Positions 2,619-17,341 of a stretch of DNA of 64,000 bases are shown here, piece after piece (the stretch's first letter is position 1; the number at the start of each line of letters is the position of its first letter). The notes beneath the pieces were generated by a model that did not search any database, was not told the origin of the DNA, and was given only the letters and a program-made list of their open reading frames with translations. A program made the position numbers and the translations under genes. This DNA is from Alphaproteobacteria bacterium 46_93_T64. GTDB taxonomy: Bacteria > Pseudomonadota > Alphaproteobacteria > Sneathiellales > Sneathiellaceae. The stretch spans positions 310,001 to 374,000 of the forward strand of contig MAAN01000011.1 of NCBI GenBank assembly GCA_002163135.1, read 5' to 3'.

Positions 2619-3185
2619 TTCGTACTCCATGATGAGTGGGCGCGTGAATGTAACAACTCTTGAGCTTCGATCTCAAGGCAACCAATACGCACTCGCTAGT
2701 GCAGCGTTACTCCAAGAACAACCGCCTTGAACCGGTCGCGCGCGGCTTTGTAGCTTTCTTTTGTAGCATCTTGTAGTACCTGTCCAAATCTGTTTGGAAA
2801 ATGCCAGATATGGACCGCCAGAATTATACGCCTCAACCCCCTGGCGGTGGAGTAATCGCTCACTCGTGGATCACCATTTTACCATCTTACAAATTTATTG
2901 TGGCTTGAAACGTTTGCTGATGTCGATGCGGAGGCTTAGCACTAACTTCATTTAAGTACAGAAACTTCTTAACTGCAATATTCGGGCATTTGCGCCCGCC
3001 GGGCCTTAACTTAGTGTCGGCTTCTTCTGTTTTTGGCGGGACAAGTACACTTTCGACGCCTAACCAGAATCCCAATTAAACGAAAATTTAGTGAATAGCG
3101 TCAGACAATGGTCAGTAATAGTTTGTTTTTAGTGTTAATGCCCTATGTCAAATCTAATGAAACCTACTTTAGAAGGGCTGGCAGG
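2619..3185. other. Decayed or non-coding region
   Basis: About 570 bases between the broken small gene and the chemoreceptor. Minus-strand frames at roughly 2700-2880 (containing RDRFKAVVLGV) and 2887-3075 look partly protein-like, but neither has a start context nor a family I recognise. Together with the neighbouring pseudogene this suggests the remains of an accessory insertion. Confidence 0.4.
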
Positions 3186-5021
3186 ATGCTCAATCTCAAA
3201 GCAAGCATTTTTAACGCTGTTATCTGGTCAATCCCGATAATATTGGGTTTCGCCATTATTGTTTCCGGGTGGTTGATCCCAACGCTAACCGAGAACAATG
3301 CCCGCACAGAGGCACAACGGTCAGCAGCCGAAATGGTCAGCCAGTTCAAGACCATACGCGGTTACTATACGAAGAATGTCATCGGTAAAGTTTTGAAACA
3401 GACAGAGTTGAAAGCATCGCCTGATCATGCGTCTATGGCAAATGCTATTCCGCTTCCAGCGACCTTTATCCATGATTTGAGCAAGCTGCTTAAGAAAAAC
3501 GATACTTCAATTGCATTGTATAGCCCTTTTCCTTTTCCAGGCCGGCAATCACGTGTTCTGGATGATTTTCAAAAACAGGCATGGAGCTTTCTAAATGCCA
3601 ACCCAAAAGGCGTTTTTTCGCGTGAAGTAACAGTTGATGGAAAAGCGATGATGCGTGTAGCGTCAGCCGACACAATGGTGGCTGAAGGATGTGTAAACTG
3701 TCATAATTCACATCCAGATACACCTAAGGTGGGCTGGAAACTTGGAGACGTCAGAGGCGTTTTGGAAGTTGTCAAAAATATCGATCCACAAATAGCAGCA
3801 GGACGCACTCTTGGATATATTATGATCCTCATTCTGGTGGTAATTGGGGTGGTTTTGGTGATTGTGTCAACAGTGATTTCCCGCAAAGCAGCTAAAATGG
3901 TAAGCGATGTGACTGATACAATGTCCGAGCTGTCTGAAAGCAATGTAGAACCTGAGACTGTTGAGATTACCGGGACAGAGCGCGAAGACGAAATAGGTAA
4001 AATTGCTAAGGCTTTACTGATTTTTAGAGAATCTGCAATTGAGAAAAGGTCCCTTCATGAACAGCGAATAGTTGCCAGACAAGAGGCAGAAGATGAACGG
4101 ATGGCAATGGAAAAACGCCGGTCGGATCGGGAGATAAAGAATGAGGAGGACAAGCGGAAGGTAGAAGAAGAAAAAAGCGAAGCTCTTCATAATCTCATCC
4201 ACACATTCGAAAGTTCGGTAGGATCCGTTGTCAACGCTGTCGCAAGTGCAGCAAATGAATTGCAATCGACGGCCGAAAATATGACCGGAATTTCACAACG
4301 CACAACAGATTTGGCGGGTAATGTTTCACGATCCTCGAGCACTGCTACCAGTAATGTTCAATCCGTTGCGTCGGCTGCAGAAGAGTTAACTGCTTCAATT
4401 CGCGAAATTGGCTCGCAAGTAGAAAGATCGTCGAAGATAACAAGTAAGGCAGTGGTAGAGGCAAGAAAGGCAGATGATCTGATTAAGGGACTGGATGCAG
4501 GTGCGCAAAGTATTGGCGAGGTCGTCGAACTCATAAAAGATATTGCTGAACAAACAAATTTACTTGCACTGAATGCGACAATTGAAGCGGCCCGTGCGGG
4601 GGATGCTGGAAAGGGGTTTGCTGTCGTTGCAAGCGAAGTGAAAAATCTGGCGTCGCAAACTGGCAAGGCAACGGAGCAAATAAGTAAACAGATTTCAGAG
4701 ATACAAAGTGCGACCAACGCAGCCGTCACTGCGGTGCGAGGAATATCCGAAATAATCGGGGAAGTGGATGAAGTATCTTCGACAATTGCAGCAGCAGTAG
4801 AGGAACAGGGAGCGGCAACGCACGAAATCTCTAACAGTGTTCTTAGGGCAGCTAGCGGAACTCAGGAAGTATCATCGTCAATCGGATCAGTGAGTGATGC
4901 AGCGACAGAATCAGGTAAGGCATCAAAAAGCGTCTATTCGGCGTCCCAGGAATTAACAAAACAAGCAGAAAACCTCCGTGGGCAAGTCGTTGAATTTACG
5001 ACAAATGTGAAGGCAGGATGA
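3186..5021 (+). CDS. Methyl-accepting chemotaxis protein with periplasmic c-type heme (DUF3365) domain
   Basis: Inner-membrane chemoreceptor of 611 residues. I place the start at the ATG at 3186, which has AGAAGGG about eight bases upstream; an in-frame ATG at 3108 has no ribosome site. Order: membrane helix (about 9-35), periplasmic DUF3365/Tll0287-like domain with a covalent heme motif CVNCH (C169, C172, H173) followed by GDVRGVLEV, second helix (about 210-232), HAMP, a highly charged coiled coil, and the MCP signalling domain with the hairpin tip [23 protein letters not shown] split around the usual conserved residues. It lacks a CheR-docking pentapeptide. The heme suggests sensing of redox state or a gas ligand; that is inference. 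A STAS-like gene follows 125 bases downstream. A second heme/MCP system lies at 10.7-13.3 kb. Confidence 0.9.
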
Positions 5022-5146
5022 GGCTATCCGTGATCGCTTGAAATAATGGAAGCCTTTTTAAAATTATTCGAAAAGTTTGTGGATTTTCTGTATAACTCCC
5101 CGCTGAAGAGACCTCACTGAGATACTCTTCTTCAAGAAAAGTATGT

Positions 5147-5602
5147 ATGGAGAAAGTGAACAATAATATGCCGAACGGAAGTACGCCACAAAAGTTCATA
5201 GAAGAGATCGGCACATCCGGAGTTTTCTTGATTACACCTGAAGGCGAGATGACTAACCAAAAATGGATCCAACTGTTCGGCGGGTTTTTTCCGACTGTCA
5301 ACTATGCGGATCTCGGTCTAATACTTGATACAAGAAACTGCGACGACGACGCTAATTTTGAAGGAATGCAAAAGATTTTAAGCCAAGCCATAAAATCAGG
5401 CGTATCTAGCGTGACCGTTGGCGTTGTCTCAGGTTTTTCCGGTGAAATATTTCGGACCCGTATGGCGGAGGCTGTTGGCGATATATTCACTTTTGATTTA
5501 AAGGCGAATGTCTTTGACGATATTCCGGCCGCACTCAAATTTATTGAAGATCATCTTGCCAAAAAGAAATCTAACTCAGAATTAAAACGATTGCGCATGT
5601 GA
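5147..5602 (+). CDS. Hypothetical STAS/SpoIIAA-like protein
   Basis: A 151-residue soluble protein without signal peptide. The pattern is of alternating strands and helices: GVFLITPEGEMT, then WIQLFGGFF, then LGLILDTRNCDDD, a helix, SVTVGVVSG and finally FDLKANVFDDIPAALKFIEDHL. The last part resembles the end of SpoIIAA-like STAS proteins, where a strand is followed by DxxxAxxWL. No key catalytic residue is visible. It follows a chemoreceptor gene on the same strand with a 125-base gap, so it may belong to the same signalling unit, but a separate promoter is equally possible. An internal ATG at 5168 is an alternative start. Confidence 0.6.
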   Translation: MEKVNNNMPNGSTPQKFIEEIGTSGVFLITPEGEMTNQKWIQLFGGFFPTVNYADLGLILDTRNCDDDANFEGMQKILSQAIKSGVSSVTVGVVSGFSGEIFRTRMAEAVGDIFTFDLKANVFDDIPAALKFIEDHLAKKKSNSELKRLRM

Positions 5603-5667
5603 CCTCCCGACAAAACCAGATCACGCTATTTTCGTTGTTTTGTTTGACCCTTTTTTTGCATTTAGAC

Positions 5668-5699
5668 TTACTGTGCCCATGCCGGCATTGGCACAGTAA
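5668..5699. terminator. Hairpin between convergent genes, probable bidirectional terminator
   Basis: TTACTGTGCC (5668-5677) and GGCACAGTAA (5690-5699) form a perfect 10-base-pair stem. The 12-base loop contains the palindrome ATGCCGGCAT, so it can extend into a longer cruciform. It lies between the STAS-like gene and the ABC operon, which converge here. The T-rich run after the stem is weak, so Rho-independent function is likely but not certain. Confidence 0.55.
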
Positions 5700-5818
5700 T
5701 TTCGGTTGATTAAGTGACGTTTAACATTGAAAATATTCTAGGTTGCTGACCGCACCCAGACATTCTTTTTCCTCGCACATTATCTTGTCTTTGCCGGTCA
5801 GCCAGACGTTTTAGAAGA

Positions 5819-6565
5819 CTACAGAATTTGTCCTAAAAATTCGACGGTCCGTGGATCTTTGGCGTCGTCAAAGAATGTGTCGGGCGGGCCATGTTCGACG
5901 ATTACACCGCGATCTGTGAAATAAATATGATCAGCGATTTCGCGGGCAAAGGCCATTTCGTGGGTCACGAGCATGCAAGTCATCCCATCCTGAGCCAGTT
6001 CTTTAATAGCTAACAAAACTTCATTCACTGTCTCAGGATCAAGGGCAGCTGTAACTTCATCGAACAACATGACATCAGGGTTCATGGCAAGTGAGCGGGC
6101 AATGGCAACACGTTGCTGCTGGCCACCGGATAATTCGCCGGGATAGCTTTCTTCTTTACCTTCAAGGCGCACTTTCTTGATTAGTTGGCGTGCTAACTTC
6201 TCAACCTCTGCTTTATCCTGCTTCAACACTAACAGTGGTGCCATCATTATATTTTCAAGCGCCGTTTTATGAGGGAATAGATTGTATTGTTGAAAAACCA
6301 TGCCCACTTTCTTACGCAACTCCAATTTATCAAGATTGTGGTCATTGACCTCCTGTCCTTCAACAAGAATGGAGCCCTGCTGAATGTCATTAAGCGCATT
6401 GACGCATCGAATAAGCGTTGATTTACCAGAGCCCGACGGCCCGATTATACAAACCACTTCGCCCTTCATCACGTCCATCGAGATGCCTTTTAGGACCTCA
6501 AGAGCACCAAAAGATTTATGCAGATCCTTGATGGACACCATTGGTTGATCTTCACTCCAAGCCAT
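5819..6565 (-). CDS. Polar amino acid ABC transporter, ATP-binding protein
   Basis: Cytoplasmic ATPase of a GlnQ/HisP-type importer, 248 residues. Walker A is GPSGSGKST (about 43-51), the signature is LSGGQQQR, Walker B is MLFDEVTAALDPE, and the switch is LVTHEMAFA. The spacing and length are normal for polar amino acid importers. It is the last gene of a four-gene operon: binding protein, two permeases, ATPase. The ribosome site AAGGAAG lies just before the ATG, 11 bases after the end of the permease gene. The exact substrate cannot be read from this subunit. Confidence 0.9.
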   Translation of the reverse strand: MAWSEDQPMVSIKDLHKSFGALEVLKGISMDVMKGEVVCIIGPSGSGKSTLIRCVNALNDIQQGSILVEGQEVNDHNLDKLELRKKVGMVFQQYNLFPHKTALENIMMAPLLVLKQDKAEVEKLARQLIKKVRLEGKEESYPGELSGGQQQRVAIARSLAMNPDVMLFDEVTAALDPETVNEVLLAIKELAQDGMTCMLVTHEMAFAREIADHIYFTDRGVIVEHGPPDTFFDDAKDPRTVEFLGQIL

Positions 6566-6576
6566 AACAAACTTCC

Positions 6577-7416
6577 TTAATTAATAACTGCAAATTTCTT
6601 TTCCAGACGAATTGTCCACCGCGCAATCGGGTAACAATAAATAAAGAACATGAGTAAAACGAATGAGTAAAAGGGTATCAGCAGATCGGTACGACCACCT
6701 TCTGCGGCCAAGGCCTGACCAGTAAGCGTCATCATCTCGGACACACCGACGATAGACGCAAGCACTGTTGCCATTGTTAGTATCGAATACAAGTTCATCC
6801 ACGGGGGCAACATGCGTTTCACGCATTGAGGAAGAATGATACGCCATAAAACCTGAGTGCGTGAAAATGCCAAGCTTTCAGCCGCTTCCCATTGCCCGCT
6901 CGGCAATGAAATTACACCACCACGAACAATTTCTGACACATTTGCCATCACGGGCAATGACAGGCCAAAAATTGCTTTCAGCCAATCCGGTAACGGAATG
7001 ATTAAGCTGCCAATTTTGATTTCGAATGGCAACAGAAACATCGCAAAAAACAACAGTACCAGCCACGGAGCATTCCGGAAAAACTGGGTTGTGATCCAGG
7101 CAAATTTTCTGACCCAGCCATTCAAAGAAATTTGACCAAGTCCAAGGGCTGCTCCTGTAATCGTACCAACGGCCATTGCACTGATTGAAATGACGACATT
7201 GAACACGAATCCTTGCAGCAACAACGGCATCCAGCGCACAAGAACCTCAAACATAGATGCCCTCGTGGGTTCTTCGGCGGCAAAGGCGGGTATGGATGCC
7301 AGAACGACAATAGAAGCCAAAACCACGCCATGCCATGCCTTAAGGCGAAATGGATCAGTCTGTCGGTTTCGAGGTGCCATCATTACTGGCAAAACATTAT
7401 TATTTTTCTGTTTCAT
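6577..7416 (-). CDS. Polar amino acid ABC transporter, permease
   Basis: Inner-membrane permease of the HisM/GlnP type with several hydrophobic helices and the EAA loop around EAAESLAFSRTQVLWRIILP. Two ATGs are close together: the one at 7416 has GAGGG eight bases upstream and is chosen; ATG 7422 is nearly as likely. A longer frame to 7467 would overlap the preceding permease by 40 bases and is rejected. The N-terminus contains an early hydrophobic segment ending in AFAAEE that looks like a signal anchor, slightly unusual for this family. It is translated just after the companion permease, whose stop is only 11 bases upstream. Confidence 0.86.
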   Translation of the reverse strand: MKQKNNNVLPVMMAPRNRQTDPFRLKAWHGVVLASIVVLASIPAFAAEEPTRASMFEVLVRWMPLLLQGFVFNVVISISAMAVGTITGAALGLGQISLNGWVRKFAWITTQFFRNAPWLVLLFFAMFLLPFEIKIGSLIIPLPDWLKAIFGLSLPVMANVSEIVRGGVISLPSGQWEAAESLAFSRTQVLWRIILPQCVKRMLPPWMNLYSILTMATVLASIVGVSEMMTLTGQALAAEGGRTDLLIPFYSFVLLMFFIYCYPIARWTIRLEKKFAVIN

Positions 7417-7427
7417 TGTCATATCCC

Positions 7428-8177
7428 TCAAGCCCCGAAACCGGGTATTTTCAAAGCCCGTTCCCACCTGTTCATTCCCCAGACCAAAATCCCGACAAGG
7501 ACAAAATAAGTCAGCAGCATGAAAATCATCATCTCTGTAACGTTTACATTGTCAGACCATATCTGATTGGCTTCATACAACATTTCAGGCACTGCAATGG
7601 CATAGGCCAAAGTCGTTGTTTTTACCAAGTTGACTAGATTATTGTTCAAAGCCGGTAAGACAACACGAAAAGCCAAAGGCAGAGTGATGTCTTTATAGAT
7701 GTGTAGTCTTGTAAAACCTAAAGCTTCAGCAGCTTCTATTGTGCTATCTGGTACTGCTTCAATACCCGAGCGAAATATCTCTACATTGTAGGCTCCGGCG
7801 AAAAACGATAACGAGATTACCGCCCAAGTGAACCCGCCCAGTATTGGTTCCTGTCCGCCGTAATCATTTGTGACTTTTGGTAGCAATGTACCAATGGCGA
7901 AATAGAAGAAATATAATTGCACCAGCGGCGGCGTATTGCGGAATAACTGAATGTATCCGTTTACAATCCTGCGGGTCCATTTTAGGGGAGAGTTCTGCAG
8001 CCAAGCACCAATAATGCCAATGATAACCGAGAAGAATAAACAGATAACCGAGAGTTTTACTGTCGTAAAAAACCCATCAATCATGCGACCACGGTCATAA
8101 CTGTCATAAATAAATGGAAGATTTATGCCCGTACTGTCATAGAGCACTCTTGCCCATTCATAAAATGCTTCCATCAA
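7428..8177 (-). CDS. Polar amino acid ABC transporter, permease
   Basis: Second inner-membrane permease of the same importer, 249 residues. Hydrophobic helices are visible around IDGFFTTVKLSVICLFF, TWAVISLSFF and the C-terminal MIFMLLTYFVLVGILVWG. The EAA loop is EAAEALGFTRLHIYKDITLP. It pairs with the next permease to form the heterodimeric pore. It lies between the binding-protein gene (83-base gap) and the second permease, consistent with one transcript. Confidence 0.88.
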   Translation of the reverse strand: MMEAFYEWARVLYDSTGINLPFIYDSYDRGRMIDGFFTTVKLSVICLFFSVIIGIIGAWLQNSPLKWTRRIVNGYIQLFRNTPPLVQLYFFYFAIGTLLPKVTNDYGGQEPILGGFTWAVISLSFFAGAYNVEIFRSGIEAVPDSTIEAAEALGFTRLHIYKDITLPLAFRVVLPALNNNLVNLVKTTTLAYAIAVPEMLYEANQIWSDNVNVTEMMIFMLLTYFVLVGILVWGMNRWERALKIPGFGA

Positions 8178-8260
8178 TTCCCCCTCACTCGATAATCAGC
8201 ACAAACAAACTGGAAATGGCGACAGAATTTATCTGAAAATGCCGCCATTTTCCTTAGTAT

Positions 8261-9073
8261 CTATTTGTATTTTTTATTCATATCCATTGCGAAAGGAGTG
8301 TTGGCGACACCCCATTTCGTTTCAAGCGCCAAGATACGGCCTGTTTTATGCCAATCTACGATCATTGCTTCCATCATTTTGTGGAACTTTGTTTCACCAA
8401 GCTTCACAGCAAGACCCCAAGGGGCATCATCAATTGTTGGTAATGGCATTTCATAATCAGCCCAGTCAGACTGCTCAAGTGTTGCAACATGAGACGAGTC
8501 GTCATAAACAAAGGCTACACAATTGCCGGCTTTCAAAGCTGCATAAACTTCGGCGGTACCTTTAAAGGCAACAATTTTGGCACCAAAGTCACGGCCGGTT
8601 TTTTTATTGTAAAATGCGCCTTGTATGCCGCAAACAGGTTTGCCTCGCAGGTCTTCCCATTTTTTGAACCCAAATTTCTTAGGCGTCATGATATTGGTAC
8701 CTGATGAATAGTAATTTGGGTCTACAATCGAGACTACTTTCCGGCGGTCGGGCTTGTCTGTCATCGTTGCGATTAACAGATCAACTTTGCCTTGTTGTAA
8801 GAATTGCATACGATTAGAACTGACCACGGGCACATATTCAATTTTTACACCAAGTTTATCAGCAACATCTTTCGCAAGCTCCGGCTCAATTCCAATAATG
8901 GCGCCTGATGTATCGCGAAATCCGTAAGGTTTGTAGTCAGCTTTAACCGCAACTTTTAAGACGCCGCGGGCCTTTATGTCATCAATTACATCGGCTTGTG
9001 CTGGTAGTGCGGTAACTGCAAATGCACCCAATGCTACTGCTGTTGCTATCTTTTTTGATAGAATACTAAACAT
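8261..9073 (-). CDS. Polar amino acid ABC transporter, periplasmic binding protein
   Basis: First gene of the importer operon; 270 residues with a signal peptide (lysines, then a hydrophobic stretch, cleavage near ALPAQA-DV). The SBP_bac_3 fold is recognisable: VLKVAVKADYKPYGF, then GIEPELAKDVADKLG, QGKVDLLIATMTDKPDR and LRGKPVCGIQG. The motif of acidic and arginine residues that grips the amino acid alpha-groups is present around MTDKPDRR. A textbook ribosome site AAGGAGG precedes the ATG, fitting its need for high expression. The ligand is probably a polar or charged amino acid; the sequence does not decide which. Confidence 0.88.
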   Translation of the reverse strand: MFSILSKKIATAVALGAFAVTALPAQADVIDDIKARGVLKVAVKADYKPYGFRDTSGAIIGIEPELAKDVADKLGVKIEYVPVVSSNRMQFLQQGKVDLLIATMTDKPDRRKVVSIVDPNYYSSGTNIMTPKKFGFKKWEDLRGKPVCGIQGAFYNKKTGRDFGAKIVAFKGTAEVYAALKAGNCVAFVYDDSSHVATLEQSDWADYEMPLPTIDDAPWGLAVKLGETKFHKMMEAMIVDWHKTGRILALETKWGVANTPFAMDMNKKYK

Positions 9074-9415
9074 AGTTTCCTCCTTGTTGAGCCACCAGAA
9101 TAGAAAATTTGTCCAATGACAGTTCTGCTAATTTTCATATATTTTAATTTGCTGTTTTATATATTTAACATACACACTAGCTATAGGTGTCTCTTTTGGA
9201 AAGAGAATGTGTCATTGAACTTTGATATGCCTGAAGTTTCTTTGACACTTCGAGGTTTCCATTTTTGCTAAAGCTCAAATTCCATTGGTGACAGCATTCA
9301 GTTAGTGAAAACGCGTCATAGGTTCACTGTTGACCCTGAGAAGACATTTGTACTGGCCAATCTCCCGGAAAATCTCTAACAATTTCCCACCTGAATTTTT
9401 ATTAAGGCAATCATC
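9074..9415. other. Divergent intergenic region with promoters
   Basis: The leader of the amino acid importer operon (leftward) and of the MDR oxidoreductase (rightward). The first 120 bases are very AT-rich, as expected for a strong promoter. No clear operator palindrome or small gene was seen. Confidence 0.45.
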
Positions 9416-10477
9416 ATGGCTGGTTTACCGAACAAAATGAGTGGTGTCCTTCTGATCGGGCATGGCGGCGCTGATATGCTGAACTACCGGACTGACATTC
9501 CCGTCCCTCATCCGGGGGCAGGCGACGTTCTTATCCGGGTATTTGCTGCAGGGGTTAACAATACGGATATTAACACCCGTACAGCATGGTATTCAAAAGA
9601 TGACCAGAGTTCTGAAGATGCCAGTTGGTCAGGACAGGCATTGAAATTTCCTCTCATTCAGGGTGCAGATGTCTGCGGGACCATTGTTTCAGTGGGAGAT
9701 AATGTCGACAAGAAACGCATTGGAGAGCGAGTGCTCATTGAACCTTGTATTCGCGAGGCTAACAATACGACCCTCGACAAACCCTGGTATTTTGGATCGG
9801 AATGTAATGGTGGTTTTGCGGAATACACCGTTGTTGCCTCTCGTCATGCTTACGCGGTCAATAGTTCATACGCGAGTACGGAACTCGCTTCATTTCCCTG
9901 TTCTTACTCGACAGCGGAAAACATGCTAACGCGTTCGCAAGTAACCGCAAAAGACCGAGTACTAATTACAGGTGCCTCTGGCGGTGTCGGCTCTGCAGCG
10001 GTTCAACTCGCCAAAGCTCGAGGTGCTACGGTTATTGCTGTCACCAGCACCTCAAAAGCTGCCATGCTTCGGGAGATCGGAGCCGATCAAACAATCGACA
10101 GGGAAAGTGACTATGTCAAACTCTTGGGGAAAAATAGTGTTGATGTGGTAATCGACTTGGTCGCAGGTCAAAAATGGCCCTCATTGCTTGATGTCTTGGA
10201 AATGGGCGGGCGGTATGCCGTTGCAGGAGCAATTGGTGGTCCGGTCGTGGCATTAGATGTCAGAACACTATACCTCAAGGATCTCAGTTTCTTCGGCTGT
10301 ACGGTTCTTGAACCTGAGGTGTTCGGAAACCTAATCGCCCACATTGAAAATGGGCGAGTAAAACCATTAATCGCAGAAACCTACACATTGAAGGAAATAG
10401 AAAAGGCTCAAAAATCCTTTGAAAGAAAAGGCCATATCGGAAAAATCGTATTTTCAATTAAGGATGATCTTCACTAA
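9416..10477 (+). CDS. Medium-chain dehydrogenase/reductase, quinone-oxidoreductase/alcohol-dehydrogenase-like
   Basis: Cytosolic NAD(P)H-dependent oxidoreductase of the MDR superfamily, 353 residues. The N-terminal GroES-like domain shows PHPGAGDVLIRVFAAGVNNTD and GADVCGTIVSVGDNV. The Rossmann domain shows ITGASGGVGSAAVQLAKARGA, with the AxGGVG form common in quinone oxidoreductases. It lacks the structural four-cysteine zinc lobe of classical alcohol dehydrogenases. It stands alone, divergent from the amino acid importer. Substrate unknown. It is not close to AcuI (acryloyl-CoA reductase) in its N-terminal sequence, although the family is the same. Confidence 0.8.
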   Translation: MAGLPNKMSGVLLIGHGGADMLNYRTDIPVPHPGAGDVLIRVFAAGVNNTDINTRTAWYSKDDQSSEDASWSGQALKFPLIQGADVCGTIVSVGDNVDKKRIGERVLIEPCIREANNTTLDKPWYFGSECNGGFAEYTVVASRHAYAVNSSYASTELASFPCSYSTAENMLTRSQVTAKDRVLITGASGGVGSAAVQLAKARGATVIAVTSTSKAAMLREIGADQTIDRESDYVKLLGKNSVDVVIDLVAGQKWPSLLDVLEMGGRYAVAGAIGGPVVALDVRTLYLKDLSFFGCTVLEPEVFGNLIAHIENGRVKPLIAETYTLKEIEKAQKSFERKGHIGKIVFSIKDDLH

Positions 10478-10681
10478 TAGCAATGATTGGTGTTTTCATT
10501 TCAGAAATTGCCACGTTTCGAAAATAGATATCTTGCTTATGCCAGCATGCTAACATTTGTTTTGTTGGGGTTAGCAAAGAGCGTGCAATTTAAACGTGCT
10601 TGCCTAGATATAGTTTTCTAATTTTTATCATGTTCACTTTTGGAATGCGTCTGTTGAGGTGGCAACCAATTTGAGGACACA

Positions 10682-12448
10682 TTATACATTGCGAACTCTT
10701 TGCAGGAATTGGTTGATGTCGGTTGCCAAATTTGTCGATTGTTTTTCAAGGATTTGAGTAGCGGCCAGCATTTCTTCAGCTGCGTTCCCTGTTTCTTCTG
10801 ATTGTTGGGAAACCCTGTCGATTTTCCCTGCAACATCTTTTGTGCCAGCAGAAGCTTCTTGCACATTGCGGGATATGTTGCCCGTCGCAGCGCTTTGTTC
10901 TTCCACTGCTGAGGATATAGTAACAGTGATTTGGCGGATCTCGCTTATAACCGCATTGATCTTGGAGATCACCTCTACGGCATTCTGAGTAGCGACTTGC
11001 ATTTCAGAAATCTGGTTGCTGATTTCTTCTGTTGCTTTAGCTGTCTGGCTGGCCAGATTCTTGACCTCAGACGCGACAACAGAAAATCCTTTTCCTGCGT
11101 CGCCAGCGCGCGCCGCTTCTATCGTCGCATTTAAAGCCAGCAAGTTCGTCTGAGACGCAATATCATGGATCAGGGAGACAACTTCACTGATACGATTTGC
11201 AGATTCTGACAAGGCGCCGACAGTCTTGTTACCTTGCTCGGCCTCGTTCACAGCTTCTTCGGATACTGCGCTAGCCTTTGTTATCTGTTGACTGATTTCC
11301 TGAATAGAAGATGACAGCTGCTCGGCCGCGGAGGCAACGGATTGAATATTTGTCGAAGCATCACCGGACGCTGAAGCAACTTCTGTCGTCAATTCTTTGG
11401 AAACATTTGCTGTGTCCGCCATTGATTTTCCAGTCAAATGCATTTGATTTACAGATTGATTGAGCGGATCAAGATGTCCAGACACCTGTCCTTCAAATTC
11501 AGAGATTAGAGCAGTCAAAATTTCAGCCCGTTTTTCCATTTCACCCGCAAGTTCCTGTTCGTGGCGTTTTTCTTCTCGTTCTCGTTCAACCTTTTCGGCG
11601 TCACGTTTTTTTTGATTACCAGCCCGTTCTTTTTCCACTTTTTGCGCGTCTCGCTCCAGCTGTTCTCGAGCCAGCGCATTATCTTTAAAAATCTGAACAG
11701 CATTGGCTATATCGCCAATTTCATCCCGCCTATCGGTTGATGGAACTTCAATCGACATGTCGCCATTGGCCAGCTCTCGCATAGCACAAGTCATATTGGA
11801 CAGGGGTCGGGTGATTGAGCGGATGATAACGAAGGTAATCAATGCTGTAAGCAGAACAGCAACGCCAACAACATACACTGTCATGTTGAGCGCATAAGTA
11901 GCATCCGCCCTTATATTATCGCTGGTAATCAACGCTTCGTCATTTGATTGACTGAAAATACCGGCAATTATGATGTCAACAGCTTCGATTTCTGCCCGCG
12001 CTTTGGAAACAAGGCTATTGCCGAGAACCCGGTTGTCATCGACATAGGCATCTACTGCCTCAATGGATTTTTCAATAAAGATCTCGGTATGACTGATAAT
12101 CTGGGCCACTTGCTCAGGATAACGATCTTTTATAAGTTCCAGATTCTGCAACAAAAGTTGCTGTGCTGCATAAGCATTATCTTCAGATTCATTCTGCCAG
12201 CTGACCTCAAGGTCAGTGATCCAGTATTTGACGTCATTGAAATTATTGCTGATTTCGGTTGCTTGGCCGACAATTGTCTGCAGCTCAACCTGATACTCCA
12301 TGCTTTCGCGGCCCTCGACAATGAAACCCCGTAAAAACCAACTGGTTCCGATCAGGAAAAGCAAAAGAACTATACTCAGTCCGACGAGTTTAGCTTTTAT
12401 AGTCGCCTGTATAACAAGCTTCTTTGGCTGTTTAGATTTACTATGCAT
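10682..12448 (-). CDS. Methyl-accepting chemotaxis protein
   Basis: Inner-membrane chemoreceptor of 588 residues. Helix one lies at about 18-38, followed by a helical periplasmic domain of about 150 residues without a heme motif, a second helix (about 190-213), HAMP (with [16 protein letters not shown]), a charged coiled coil and the MCP signalling domain with [18 protein letters not shown] at its tip. No C-terminal CheR pentapeptide is present. The gene begins 24 bases after a secreted heme protein, so the two are very likely co-transcribed and co-functional. The periplasmic domain may receive the signal from that heme protein; this is inference. Confidence 0.9.
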
Positions 12449-12472
12449 TCCACTCTCACTTACTTAGTTACC

Positions 12473-13255
12473 CTACTGGAATATTGCGACACTAATAGCT
12501 CCTCCAAGCTCTCCTAATACGCCACCTTCTTTTTTGCCGCCCGTAATATCACGTTCGCCTTTTGGTTCGCCGTGGCAGGCAAGGCAGGACGCTTTATAAT
12601 ATTCCGGGATCATTAAACGAAAGGCATTCTTGCCTTTTTTTGGTGTGGTTTCGAAAAATGCTTTGCCTTTGGTATACTCGGGCGATTTAAACTGTTTTTC
12701 GATGACTCCATTTTCCCATTTGTCGGGGCGATTAGCTCGATTGCGAACATATTTTTTGGGTGCTGTTAATTTCAAATCTGCTTTATCTCCACTGTTTGCA
12801 CGAAATTTTTCGGTAACCTGACGTGCAAATATGGCTGGAAGAAATCCCTTGAACCCGACACCGGATTCATTAATGACAGCTTGCGCTTCATTCATTACCG
12901 TGGCGATGGCAGACAGTTCGCTTTTCAGTAATTCGCCAAGTAATCCATCGGATGGCAAATCATCAATATTTTTGCCCGTTGCTTTCTCAAAATTGGATTT
13001 TGCTTTGTTAACAACAAAATCGGCACTCAACCCTTTGTCTCCCTTAGAGGCGTCGTTGATTAATTTCTGATTATCAGAAATAACAGCTCGCGCAGATCGC
13101 AACAGGGTCGCAAGGTTTAACGCAATTTCTTCATTGCTTTCTGCAGCATACCCAATGGTGGCAACAAATGGCGTCGTGTTTACAGCAAGTGCGAATAACA
13201 AACCAACAAATGCGAAACGAAAATGCGTAAATGTAGTCAATACAATCTTATGCAT
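12473..13255 (-). CDS. Secreted c-type heme protein, DUF3365 (Tll0287-like)
   Basis: About 260 residues with a signal peptide ending near IGYAAES. I choose the ATG at 13255, which has AGGAGA five bases upstream, over the in-frame upstream start at 13282. The mature part is helical, followed by the DUF3365 core: a covalent heme motif CLACH, then GEPKGERDITGG and a closing GELGGAISVAIF. This is the same domain type that is built into the chemoreceptor at 3.2-5.0 kb. It is the first gene of a two-gene operon with a chemoreceptor lacking its own heme domain. The natural reading is a periplasmic redox or gas sensor that docks on the receptor. Confidence 0.82.
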   Translation of the reverse strand: MHKIVLTTFTHFRFAFVGLLFALAVNTTPFVATIGYAAESNEEIALNLATLLRSARAVISDNQKLINDASKGDKGLSADFVVNKAKSNFEKATGKNIDDLPSDGLLGELLKSELSAIATVMNEAQAVINESGVGFKGFLPAIFARQVTEKFRANSGDKADLKLTAPKKYVRNRANRPDKWENGVIEKQFKSPEYTKGKAFFETTPKKGKNAFRLMIPEYYKASCLACHGEPKGERDITGGKKEGGVLGELGGAISVAIFQ

Positions 13256-14016
13256 GAGATTCTCCTGGATACAGGGACTCAACTAGTGCGAAAGCGCGAA
13301 TAAAGACAGCGCTCGTCTAGAAGTTGGGATCAGCTACTGCCAATAACCGCTGGAAGAACTGGACAAAATGCCCGGCAACCTACAAATACTTCAGCGACCT
13401 TTGGAGGATCGTCACACTAAGCATACCCTTAATTCTATTGAATATAGGGCGCACTATTAAGATAACCATAATATAATAGTATCTCGATATAATATTCAAC
13501 TTCTTGGCTAATTGTAACGAGTACGAAATAGTCGATTGTATACTGTGCTGGTTGAAATAAATTCTTGTTGCTGGATCGAACAAGAATACTCAAGCTGTGC
13601 GCAGATTTCGTATAGTAATATTAGTAAGTGGCATAAAAATTCGCTTTCAGCATAGTCCTTACTATTTTCAATCAACTGGTCGTGGGTTCAGCCCATAGGG
13701 CCTACCTATTTAACTAGTTGAGAATAAGATGGTAGTTAGATTTGATCATTTTCTGTCATCGTTCTCGTTTTTATGGGTAAGTACGATGTAAGCATCTGAG
13801 TAAGGAAAATTTGATATTCTGTCTTAGTTCTGATTTGGTCTGATATTAAATTGAAATAGGTTCTCATCTAGTCTGTAAAATTTTTGTGCGTTAAACGCAT
13901 CCAATCAATAAAGTACCCCACAATGTGAAAATTGTCTGTGGCTGGTATAGTAATCCAGTTTATACTGCGGTTATTAAGCAGACAGTATTTTACCTTATAG
14001 AGATCTGAGCCCTTTT
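13256..14016. other. AT-rich intergenic region, no gene seen
   Basis: About 760 bases between divergent genes, rich in A and T. It carries the promoter of the heme-protein/MCP operon on the left and of the propeller gene on the right. No frame has a credible start and no RNA gene is apparent. A short stretch at about 13674-13710 looks like a tRNA 3' end but no tRNA body precedes it. Confidence 0.45.
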
Positions 14017-15258
14017 ATGCGCACGCTAGAACTTTCTCATTTATTTTCCCTTCGATTATTTTGTCTTGTCCTGGCTATGTCGAGTTGCTCAACTTTGGCG
14101 CAAGCAACTGATGATTTACGGGATGTCATGGTGGTGGGTAATAACTGGGAGGGCACCGCAGATATTTTTGATGCCAAGAGTTTTGAAAAGATCAAGCGTA
14201 TCAACATCGTTCCAGACATTGAAGAACGCCTAAACGAGATCGATAATGCAAGTTGGGTTCGACAGATATTCTTTAAGGTGATCCGCACAGTGATAGGTGA
14301 GGGGCATGACCAGTTGGTTGATGACATGTTCACCTCTCATGACGGTCGTTATCTCTATGCTTCACGCCCGAGTTTCGCCGATGTCGTAGCGATTGATATG
14401 CATACCGAAGAAATTGTTTGGCGGACACCGATTGACGGAATGCGTGCAGACCATGCTGCTATTTCTCCTGATGGTAAAACTTTCTTAGTCTCGGCCTCCA
14501 CAGCAAGAAAAGTACATGCCATCGATACCAGTACGGGCCGTATTACTGGTGAATTTGAATCTGGAGATCAACCGCACGAGAATAATTATTCTAAAGACGG
14601 TAAGCTCATTTATCATGCGAGTATCGGTAAAGTGTATGTGCCGACCACGAGTGCTTGGCTCGATTGGATCAAAGGCGATCGTTGGTTGCAGTTGGTTGAT
14701 GCCGATAGTTTGCAGGTCCTAAAGCGAATAGACATTGGTGAAAAACTTGAACAAGCTGGCATGCCGTGGGTTGATAAAGCGGTGAGACCAATGGCCATCG
14801 CTCCAGATGGGCGTTTCATTTATTTACAGGTTTCTTTTTTTCACGGATTTTTCGAATATGACCTGCAGTTAGACAAAATAACTCGCAAGATTGAATTGCC
14901 TGTCCCCGATGAAATTCAACAAATGAGTTATTGGGATTATCAACTCAATTCCGCTCATCATGGGTTAGCCATCAACCATGCCGGCACCAAACTTTGCGTG
15001 GCAGCGACCATGTCAGGCTATGTTGCGATCGTAAATCGCGAGGATTTCACCTATACGACCATTCCTCTGTCTACAGAACCTTTAGGCTCTAAACCCTATT
15101 GGGCGACCGAAAGTGCTGATGGCCGTTTCTGTTATGTGTCGGTTAGCGAGCAAGACCGGGTTTCGATTATTTCTTTTGAAACAGGGAAAGAGGTTGCCAG
15201 TGTGGCCGTAGGCGATCATCCACAGCGCATTAGAACCGGTAAATACCTACAACGGTAA
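14017..15258 (+). CDS. Secreted YVTN-type beta-propeller protein
   Basis: About 413 residues with a signal peptide ending near AQATDD; the SSC around residue 23 leaves a lipoprotein possible. Repeated blade motifs are visible: [66 protein letters not shown] and [13 protein letters not shown], each followed by a strand such as VVAIDM or VHAID. This is the pattern of YVTN/cytochrome-d1-like propellers. No enzyme motif is visible; such proteins often bind partners or ligands outside the cell. Two VPLPA-CTERM genes follow. A 225-base stretch (14907-15131) is repeated at 17392-17616 at about 90 per cent identity. Confidence 0.78.
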
Positions 15259-15316: not shown

Positions 15317-15672
15317 GAATATGCGCGGACGCGGTGCCTTTCTAGATTGAATGGATTCTGGAAAATAGGGTGTGCAGTACCTAGGCTCTTTACCTGAAAC
15401 GTCGACGGGTACAGGAGATCTAGATTTAGTCTCTATTGTGGCAGAAACAGACCATTAGTGGGTAACGTCCCGCGAACCGAATACACGCTTTATCCGGCCG
15501 TATTCTCCAATGATTTCTCTTCAAATTTTTTTATAAGATTAATGGAATATACTTATGTACTTTACTGTTCTCTTATAGTAGAAAATGTAGCAGTGGGCAG
15601 TATAGTTGTGAAATTTATAAATATTGTAAAGAAAAAAAACATCTAACGCTATTTCCTGGGGGGAGCATGCTT
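15317..15672. other. Leader region of the first VPLPA-CTERM gene
   Basis: About 350 bases with no convincing frame. The last 100 bases are very AT-rich and end in the strong ribosome site GGGGGGAG, so the promoter probably lies here. Confidence 0.4.
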
Positions 15673-16278
15673 ATGGATTTTATCAAGAGGTTAGTCCTGT
15701 CACTCGTTGTTGCACTAGGAGCTATTGGTATAACGACAAGTAGCGCTTTTACGGCGACATTAACATTCGATAGTTCCGGTTTACTTAACGGTGCAACTGG
15801 AGTTGTTGTTGGCGGAAGCAATTACAACGTCACCTTTATTGAAGATACTTGCATCAATGCATTCGATGGTTGTGATCAGGTTTCTGACTTCACTTTTCAA
15901 ACTGCGGCAGGCGCTAGATTAGCATCGCAAGCATTGTTGGACCAAGTTCTTTTGGGTGCATTTGATACATCCCCAGAGCTGGTAGCCGGGTATGATTCTA
16001 ACTTGGATTATGGGTTTATCCTAACGCCCTATGACCTTTTCGTGAACAGTGCGAGGCTTACTTATACCCAAAACAGATCAGAGAATTTATTAGATGCAAT
16101 TTCCCCAGTTGGGCAGATACTTGAGTATGGAAAATCGTTTGTACATACAGGTACAGCATATGCCAAATGGACGGAAGTAACTGTATCGGCCGTACCGCTG
16201 CCAGCGGCTTTACCTCTGTACGGGGCGGGTATTGCTGTCATGGGATTTATCGGTTGGCGTAAAAAACGTAATGCCTGA
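15673..16278 (+). CDS. VPLPA-CTERM sorting-domain protein
   Basis: About 201 residues, exported. The ATG at 15673 is chosen because GGGGAG lies seven bases upstream; the ATG at 15667 is too close to it. A signal peptide ends near SSAFTA-TLTF. The C-terminus carries the tripartite sorting signal: VPLPAALPLYG, a hydrophobic helix (AGIAVMGFIGW) and a basic tail (RKKRNA). This is the alphaproteobacterial VPLPA-CTERM variant of the PEP-CTERM signals handled by exosortase-type enzymes. The body has four possible disulfide cysteines (INAFDGC region) and no known domain. The likely fate is anchoring at the cell surface or incorporation into extracellular matrix; no exosortase gene is in the window. 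Confidence 0.82.
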   Translation: MDFIKRLVLSLVVALGAIGITTSSAFTATLTFDSSGLLNGATGVVVGGSNYNVTFIEDTCINAFDGCDQVSDFTFQTAAGARLASQALLDQVLLGAFDTSPELVAGYDSNLDYGFILTPYDLFVNSARLTYTQNRSENLLDAISPVGQILEYGKSFVHTGTAYAKWTEVTVSAVPLPAALPLYGAGIAVMGFIGWRKKRNA

Positions 16279-16639
16279 GTGATAGAAGTAAGAAAAGTCG
16301 CTAACCCCAATAAACCAACATTAGGATTGCATTTCTCGATCTTGTGGATGCGACTTCAAAACTAAGAATATGTTTCATATGTTTCATGTCGAATTTTGTA
16401 ATTAGTAACGATTTTTCAACTCGAGGGATCTGTTTTACAATGAACTTGAACAAACTACTGCCCTCTCAAGTTTGTTATGGTTAACGAAAATTAACTCTAT
16501 ACATTAACTTTTTTGCATAGTAAGAAACTAGAAAGACGGTTATAAAATACTGACAACACTACCATAACAAACAAAAAATCTATTTCGTAGAATTGCGCTG
16601 GGTGGATTAAGCGCATCGACATGAAACGAGGGGGAAGAG
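16279..16639. other. Intergenic region between the two VPLPA-CTERM genes
   Basis: About 360 AT-rich bases. No frame is convincing. A separate promoter for the second gene is likely, since the spacing is long. Confidence 0.4.
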
Positions 16640-17341
16640 ATGATAAAAGTCAGATTACTTTTACCAATTATTGCTGGCGCGATGCTGGCTATGGTGTCTT
16701 CGGCAACTGCGGCGAGTTATTACGCGTCCAGTGTTTTTGCGGATCCCGGATCTCTCAGCGGTCGGGCAGATAGCAACACGGGACGGGATAACCCTTCAAA
16801 CGCCCTCGGTGCTCCCAATGGTGATTTTTATAGTATGGGTTTGGGCGGAATGGCCCTCTTCGGTTTTAGTCCGGCAACAACTTTTGATCAGGATGTTCTG
16901 TTGATTGAAACGACGAATGGAAGTTGTTCGGTTCAGCCCGATGGTTCCTGTCAACAATATCCTGAGGCAGTTGAGGTTTATTTGATCAATACACCTCTTG
17001 TTCTTTCTGATGATGGCGGCACTCATGGTCCGGGCGGCGAGGCTACATACGACCTCAGCTCACTTGTCCTAGGGAGCCTGATCGCCACTGTTGGTAATGG
17101 TGATGCTGGCGCGCCTGGTTATTCGATCGACATTTCAGGACTGGAAGGCCCGTTCTACTACGTCCTGCTTAAAGACATAAGCGCGAGTTTGGGAAGTATT
17201 TCAAAAGACGGATTTGATGTGGCTGCTATCTCCGTATCCGTGGTTCCACTACCCGCCGCACTACCTCTGTACGGAGCGGGCATTGCTGTCATGGGATTTA
17301 TAGGCTGGCGCCGCAAACGTAAAGCCTCCGCCACAACCTGA
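16640..17341 (+). CDS. VPLPA-CTERM sorting-domain protein
   Basis: An exported protein of 233 residues, with GAGGGGG upstream of the ATG. The signal peptide ends near SSATAA-SYYA. The mature part is Gly/Asp/Ser-rich and starts with NPSNALGAPNGDFYSMG, a pattern seen in secreted proteins with a discoidin-like or jelly-roll fold next to PEP-CTERM tails. It ends with VPLPAALPLYG, a hydrophobic helix and RRKRKASATT. The last 80 coding bases are nearly the same as in the preceding VPLPA gene, while the bodies are unrelated, so the tail is being shuffled or conserved as a module. A strong terminator follows. Confidence 0.82.
   Translation: MIKVRLLLPIIAGAMLAMVSSATAASYYASSVFADPGSLSGRADSNTGRDNPSNALGAPNGDFYSMGLGGMALFGFSPATTFDQDVLLIETTNGSCSVQPDGSCQQYPEAVEVYLINTPLVLSDDGGTHGPGGEATYDLSSLVLGSLIATVGNGDAGAPGYSIDISGLEGPFYYVLLKDISASLGSISKDGFDVAAISVSVVPLPAALPLYGAGIAVMGFIGWRRKRKASATT

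Follow-up and report, generated by a model that had tools for sequence, protein, structure and literature searches.

A window of 64,000 nucleotides (nt) from Alphaproteobacteria bacterium 46_93_T64 (contig MAAN01000011.1, positions 310,001 to 374,000; "the window" hereafter denotes this whole stretch) encodes a secreted protein of family PF11845 (DUF3365, Tll0287-like, sCache_heme) with the c-type heme motif CXXCH and, beside it, a chemoreceptor without such a motif. By analogy with kinases served by soluble binding proteins, we regard it as rather probable that the two form a two-protein extracytoplasmic sensor, in which the heme protein would be the input module and would dock on the membrane-distal tip of the receptor. 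The gene pair was found again in 78 of 80 related loci and is therefore more than a chance neighborhood.

The heme protein was assigned to PF11845 with an E-value of 4.1e-18 (66.6 bits; cut-off, 24.1); Pfam recognized no further domain in it, and NCBIfam gave no name. Its open reading frame (ORF) spans 12473-13282 on the minus strand, with a probable start at the ATG at 13255, preceded by GGAGAA. The N-terminus is signal-peptide-like, and the cysteines of CLACH are the only ones past the signal peptide. The cytochrome c maturation protein CcmE is encoded in the genome, and heme c maturation in this host is therefore plausible; the heme would be attached covalently to this protein. Residues 40-195 of the partner receptor gave no Pfam match, and MCPsignal was above the cut-off (34.6 bits) in both receptors of the window (105.3 and 117.9 bits). 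The whole 4.0-Mb genome contains only two PF11845 matches, namely the stand-alone heme protein and a one-piece chemoreceptor at 3.2 kb (residues 63-221, E 3.6e-14, 53.8 bits, same cut-off), for which an alternative ATG at 3186 is possible. Two descriptions given by an earlier, sequence-only reading of this DNA were thus borne out: a receptor at 3.2 kb with a built-in DUF3365 domain and CVNCH (by the Pfam match), and a secreted CLACH DUF3365 protein followed after 24 nt by a chemoreceptor without a heme motif (by coordinates, Pfam, and motif search).

The genomes of 84,980 species were scanned with an alignment of the stand-alone protein, 170 relatives were confirmed, and the best 80 of these, which lean towards the query, were analyzed. 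The 80 loci (designated by L numbers; genomes, by G numbers) belong to Alpha- and Gammaproteobacteria, Nitrospinota, Planctomycetota, and Verrucomicrobiota; many are from metagenome-assembled genomes (MAGs), and 9 of the 80 genomes had already been in an earlier comparison. Neighboring receptors were identified with a profile confined to the periplasmic part, without the transmembrane (TM) segments and HAMP; a profile including TM and HAMP was discarded, since it gave 17 matches in the genome of origin, of which 16 started no earlier than position 109, and picked the wrong neighbor in L095. With the periplasmic profile, a receptor carrying the cognate domain was present in the 78 loci always on the same strand, directly downstream in 71 and directly upstream in three (L041, L096, and L097), i.e., directly adjacent in 74 in all. 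Among the 71 downstream cases used for spacing (L078 included, L095 excluded), 11 receptor genes share exactly 4 nt with the heme gene, and 61 begin no more than 60 nt past its end. In L082, L103, L108, and L113, the called receptor ORF begins inside the heme gene, its start was judged to be too early, and adjacency was taken from the position of the periplasmic match. In the same genus, all eight other genomes with the stand-alone gene (L020-L027) have a receptor with an aligning periplasmic part directly downstream; its output is a methyl-accepting chemotaxis protein (MCP) in L022 and a hybrid kinase in the other seven (by profile in all seven, by Pfam in three). Pfam was run on 16 selected neighbor proteins and a few earlier ones, and for the remaining proteins the labels MCP and kinase were assigned by our own profiles. 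A survey of this linkage in relatives had been set beforehand as a check on the idea of a detached partner; linkage was conserved, and the idea was not refuted.

Other genes recurring near the pair were response regulators (41 loci, single-linkage cluster), housekeeping genes in the Nitrospinota loci and, in 11 gammaproteobacterial loci (including L047:9600-11363 (+)), a lipoprotein-like protein with CXXCH and a distant relationship to the diheme cytochromes of the SO2930 family; three of these 11 proteins were checked, and all fell below the family cut-off. In one Nitrospinota locus (L115:7834-10206 (+)), the partner chemoreceptor has a C-terminal hemerythrin domain, which suggests that oxygen may be a second input there.

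The association was specific to this type of heme protein. PF11845 was found in 105 of 397 Pseudomonadota genomes, the linked heme protein type in seven, and the receptor domain in six, all six within the seven. In the six co-occurring genomes, two of which share one genus, the two matches lie 147-326 nt apart on the same strand; in the seventh (G364), the heme gene contains an internal stop, and the downstream MCP gave no match to the receptor domain. For comparison, 45 other short PF11845 genes (L159-L203; frame of at most 345 residues; G364 apart) were taken among the matches listed, and the receptor domain was near none of them. By our own profiles, none of the 37 secreted comparison proteins (one a fragment) among the matches listed had an MCP or kinase on the same strand within 1 kb; L169 and L202 each have an MCP or kinase no more than 100 nt away on the other strand, and L173 has a same-strand kinase 1.4 kb upstream.

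PF11845 is the subject of a preprint (PMC12889525; Deshpande and others, February 2026), whose main text shows the members to be Cache domains in which CXXCH is conserved, nearly half of them standing alone. According to that text, two proteins were tested: a stand-alone P. putida protein with an axial Cys lets nitric oxide (NO) go fast, whereas a membrane P. azotoformans protein without the axial Cys retains NO like known sensors, with release at about 1e-3 to 1e-4 per s. Stand-alone members are concluded there to be redox-related (Cluster 1) and fused ones NO-sensing (Cluster 2). A family tree of 107 rows was built by a quick method. Its 29 linked rows were 26 of the 80 linked proteins together with L205, L206, and L208; L132, L134, L144, L147, L150, L154, L157, and L158 (same genes as other rows), L197 (a fragment), L204 (an internal stop), and L207 (no CXXCH) were left out, and the label "fused" (34 rows) takes in L028 (HAMP only) and L036 (279 residues). 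The receptor-linked heme proteins formed one clade (29 rows, support 99), and the Tll0287-type stand-alones formed another (36 rows, support 100), with the receptor domain nearby in 0 of the 36. In the column about 80 residues before CXXCH, which we infer from this place and from the account in PMC12889525 to be that of the axial ligand, Pro was present in 29/29 linked rows and Cys in 36/36 Tll0287-type rows; the fused rows had Pro (28/34) or Ser (6/34). The mature part contains only the two motif cysteines in 79 of the 80 linked proteins (L066 has three), and simple hydropathy gave an N-terminal hydrophobic stretch in 79/80 and a later TM-like stretch in 0/80. By the chemistry set out in the main text of PMC12889525, the linked proteins look like sensors despite standing alone, and their clade fits neither of the two classes published there (redox for members that stand alone, NO sensing for fused ones).

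Three observations concern single members of the family. Directly downstream of four Tll0287-type stand-alones (L170, L174, L186, and L201), another CXXCH protein is encoded, as would suit redox work by the Tll0287 type. In G046 (L036:3687-5203 (+)), there is a 4-nt overlap between the genes of a 226-residue protein, which contains five CXXCH motifs, and of the 279-residue PF11845 protein, a predicted pairing of multiheme cytochrome and heme Cache protein. In G147 (L207:4679-5644 (-)), a receptor-linked heme protein beside a kinase has RLTCH, i.e., Arg for the first Cys of CXXCH; the heme site may have a single Cys, the protein may be a variant without heme, or the sequence may contain an error.

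The AlphaFold2 (AF2) model of the heme protein (predicted local distance difference test (pLDDT), 95.0) has a Cache fold with a heme loop as in Tll0287. Among solved structures, Tll0287 was the best match (5b82; Z 12.8, root-mean-square deviation (rmsd) 2.7, 142 aligned; next, Z 6.9); the sequence gave no match to solved structures at E up to 1, and the link to Tll0287 rests on the Pfam name and the structure model. The protein carries an extra N-terminal helix pair, and its N-terminal part repeats the first Cache helix 62 residues apart, with a profile similarity 10 standard deviations above the mean of all registers. The periplasmic domain of the receptor was modeled as a four-helix bundle (AF2; pLDDT, 93.8), for which LytS-N in the XylFII-LytS complex was the best match (5xsj_L; Foldseek E 6e-3; Z 14.2, rmsd 2.4, 117 aligned), followed by McpS, Vc1313, MCP2201, NarQ (Z 12.7), and TorS; absence of a family from these match lists excludes nothing. 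Helical bundles score in this range without kinship, and the LytS-N match is therefore used as an analogy. In the receptor alignment (A6, without the short fragment L040 and without L080 and L087, which have no receptor), conservation was 0.75, 0.68, and 0.78 at the helix 1/2 and helix 3/4 junctions vs 0.36-0.42 elsewhere. By the topology of the model, these conserved turns are predicted to form the membrane-distal tip, where W, D, S, E, and R are invariant in 78/78.

The receptor outputs were MCP in 41 cases and kinase in 33 (32 by profile, L112 by Pfam), and four receptors had no assigned output (L040, L074, and L075 at contig ends, and L071 with a short frame). In the heme-protein tree of 77 pairs (heme alignment A5, without L057, whose heme gene is split over two frames), one branch separates MCP-linked from kinase-linked proteins, with a minimum of one change. 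The output split is a single, old one, between a lineage with chemotaxis receptors and one with histidine kinases. Both occur in Sneathiella, and the difference in output there therefore reflects different old cassettes and not a recent domain swap. Distances between heme proteins correlate with those between receptor domains (r 0.71 for 41 MCP pairs and r 0.88 for 33 kinase pairs; none of 1000 permutations reached these values). The linkage in 78/80 loci, the co-occurrence with adjacency in 6/6 genomes, and this congruent divergence together give good support to the detached partner that had been proposed from the sequence.

In the proposed mechanism, the secreted Cache protein with its c-type heme motif would be the sensing part, and the membrane receptor beside it, without a cofactor motif and with the cognate four-helix periplasmic domain, would be the transmitting part. 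A signal (NO, another diatomic gas, or a change in heme redox state) would reach the heme protein at its open heme face, the heme protein would dock on the membrane-distal tip of the four-helix bundle, and the signal would then pass through TM2 and HAMP to the chemotaxis output or, in the sister lineage, to a histidine kinase. Docking is suggested by the location of the heme gene beside one particular receptor domain in many distant bacteria. As to the nature of the signal, the missing axial Cys would favor NO or another gas, and the diheme-cytochrome-like neighbors in the 11 gammaproteobacterial loci leave room for a redox signal.

Several results weigh against the two-protein sensor. The receptor lies further off in four loci (L059, L067, L078, and L111) and was not seen within the locus view at L080 and L087 (2/80). 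No Foldseek match to the receptor domain was at or below 1e-3, and the bundle matches at Z 11-14 may be generic. The conserved distal tip could instead be a pocket for a small ligand, the diheme-cytochrome-like neighbors could favor electron transfer, and linked inheritance alone would give the same correlation of distances. NirK, the one model tried for NO chemistry, gave two matches in the genome of origin, both under the cut-off. Linkage and correlated distances fit equally well an operon of proteins that never touch, and this is the main rival explanation: the heme protein would be a periplasmic electron-transfer or NO-scavenging protein, and the receptor of the same operon would sense a related compound alone, without contact. 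The resemblance of Tll0287-like and P. putida stand-alones to redox proteins in the main text of PMC12889525, the cytochrome-like genes in the 11 loci (3/11 checked, all below cut-off), and a tip that could be a ligand pocket all speak for it. However, the redox type belongs to the other clade, in which the presumed ligand position is occupied by Cys and none of the 36 tree members has the receptor domain nearby, and such an operon has no need of a tie to one receptor domain across two output lineages and several phyla. We therefore consider the no-contact explanation unlikely, although it deserves more weight than the others.

A second alternative, to which we give little credence, is that the heme protein turns over or carries the signal compound (e.g., NO or nitrite) and that the receptor bundle binds the product. 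Adjacent genes would suit such an arrangement, and the structures matched by the receptor domain include NarQ (Z 12.7), which senses nitrate; the heme protein, however, has no further recognized domain. We know of no mono-heme Cache domain that is an enzyme, and this was counted against the alternative.

The remaining alternative, that the nearby one-piece receptor was recently split to give the two-piece sensor or itself arose by recent fusion, is suggested by the presence of both within 10 kb of one genome and by the Nitrospinota loci described below, but is very improbable given 17% identity between the two heme domains over the aligned part, the separation of the linked clade (support 99) from all 34 fused rows, the modeled helical bundle, not a heme Cache remnant, in the partner receptor, and the finding of no fused heme receptor near the pair in the other 68 loci. 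The one-piece receptor falls in a small fused-receptor clade (7 rows, support 97) apart from the linked clade. The one-piece and two-piece sensors are not versions of one receptor, because their heme domains lie in distant branches of the family. The suggestion of the sequence-only reading that a single sensor serves in both the fused and the detached form was accordingly not supported, nor was close kinship of the two heme domains; among the 12 genomes of the same genus with PF11845, the genome of origin included, only the latter has two matches. In Nitrospinota, fused heme MCPs (CXXCH and our own MCP profile) were found near the pair in 6 of 12 loci (8 genes); three were checked with Pfam, one of which (truncated) was just below the cut-off, and the two CVNCH ones in the tree grouped with the one-piece receptor of the window. 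The occurrence of both kinds of sensor side by side thus recurs but is not general. In L057 and L068 (Nitrospina), two tandem fused heme chemoreceptors (about 1.2-9.7 kb) lie directly upstream of the detached pair.

The features of the window are listed in Table 1. Promoter and terminator patterns were near chance (10 found vs 7.7 expected, and 4 vs 3.3, respectively). Divergent from the heme gene, a beta-propeller protein that weakly resembles cytochrome d1 (PF02239, E 6.5e-9) is encoded at 14017-15258 (+). At 15667-17341 (+), two adjoining secreted proteins have VPLPAALPLYGAGIAVMGFIGWR at the C-terminal end, which we take to be a VPLPA-CTERM-like sorting tail.

Table 1. Features of the two putative heme-sensor systems in the window
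Feature	Position	Strand	Basis
One-piece chemoreceptor, 637 aa, with built-in sCache_heme domain, CVNCH	3108..5021	+	ORF, PF11845, MCPsignal
Partner chemoreceptor, 588 aa, HAMP and MCP signaling domain, without CXXCH	10682..12448	-	Pfam, motif search
Partner receptor aa 40-195, containing the putative cognate periplasmic four-helix domain	11864..12331	-	AF2 model, periplasmic profile, conserved distal tip
Gap between heme gene and partner receptor, 24 nt	12449..12472	-	
Secreted stand-alone sCache_heme protein, 260 aa, CLACH	12473..13255	-	PF11845, leader, AF2 model

H-NOX is a heme gas sensor that occurs both fused to signaling domains and as a separate protein beside a signaling partner; it differs from sCache_heme in being cytoplasmic, in binding heme b, and in its unrelated fold. 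In XylFII-LytS (5xsj) and TorT-TorS (3o1i), as in the present pair, the gene for a soluble sensor stands beside that for a receptor with a helical-bundle input domain, and a passage of PMC11113362 notes that solute-binding-protein genes adjoin kinase genes. There the binding protein docks on the helical periplasmic domain of the kinase; here the soluble partner is a heme Cache protein and not of the solute-binding-protein fold, the output may be an MCP, and the contact would be analogous. Tll0287 shares with the heme protein the Pfam match, CXXCH, the nearest fold (5b82), and a soluble secreted single domain, but the linked clade differs from the Tll0287 type in having Pro at the presumed axial-Cys position and the extra helix pair. 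From the fused NO-sensing members (Cluster 2), as described in the main text of PMC12889525, the pair differs in that heme protein and receptor are separate genes. GSU0582 and GSU0935 (PDB 3b47 and 3b42), of the same Pfam family and with c-type heme and chemotaxis output, resemble the one-piece receptor, and differ from the detached pair in having sensor and receptor in a single chain. The arrangement had been presumed to be little described; the family in both fused and stand-alone forms is already covered by the main text of PMC12889525. That text contains neither "operon", "partner", nor "dock", and "gene neighborhood" occurs in a reference title only. In the family literature, judged by titles and the beginnings of abstracts, no description of a detached sCache_heme protein paired with a receptor was found. 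Both sCache_heme proteins and docking sensor proteins are known; their combination was not found described.

On about even terms for and against, we propose a third kind of heme-Cache sensor, a diffusible extracytoplasmic gas or redox sensor that docks on a dedicated four-helix domain, in a partnership that predates the split between chemotaxis and kinase outputs and extends over genomes or MAGs of four phyla. If this holds, heme-based sensing outside the cytoplasm can be the work of a free-standing protein that attaches to a receptor, in the way that some kinases are served by sugar-binding proteins, and the sole division of the family that we found in print, stand-alone for redox and fused for NO sensing, would be broken. 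Pro vs Cys in one column, together with the neighboring gene, would then be a simple rule for recognizing signaling stand-alones, and a receptor domain without a Pfam match would gain a testable input.

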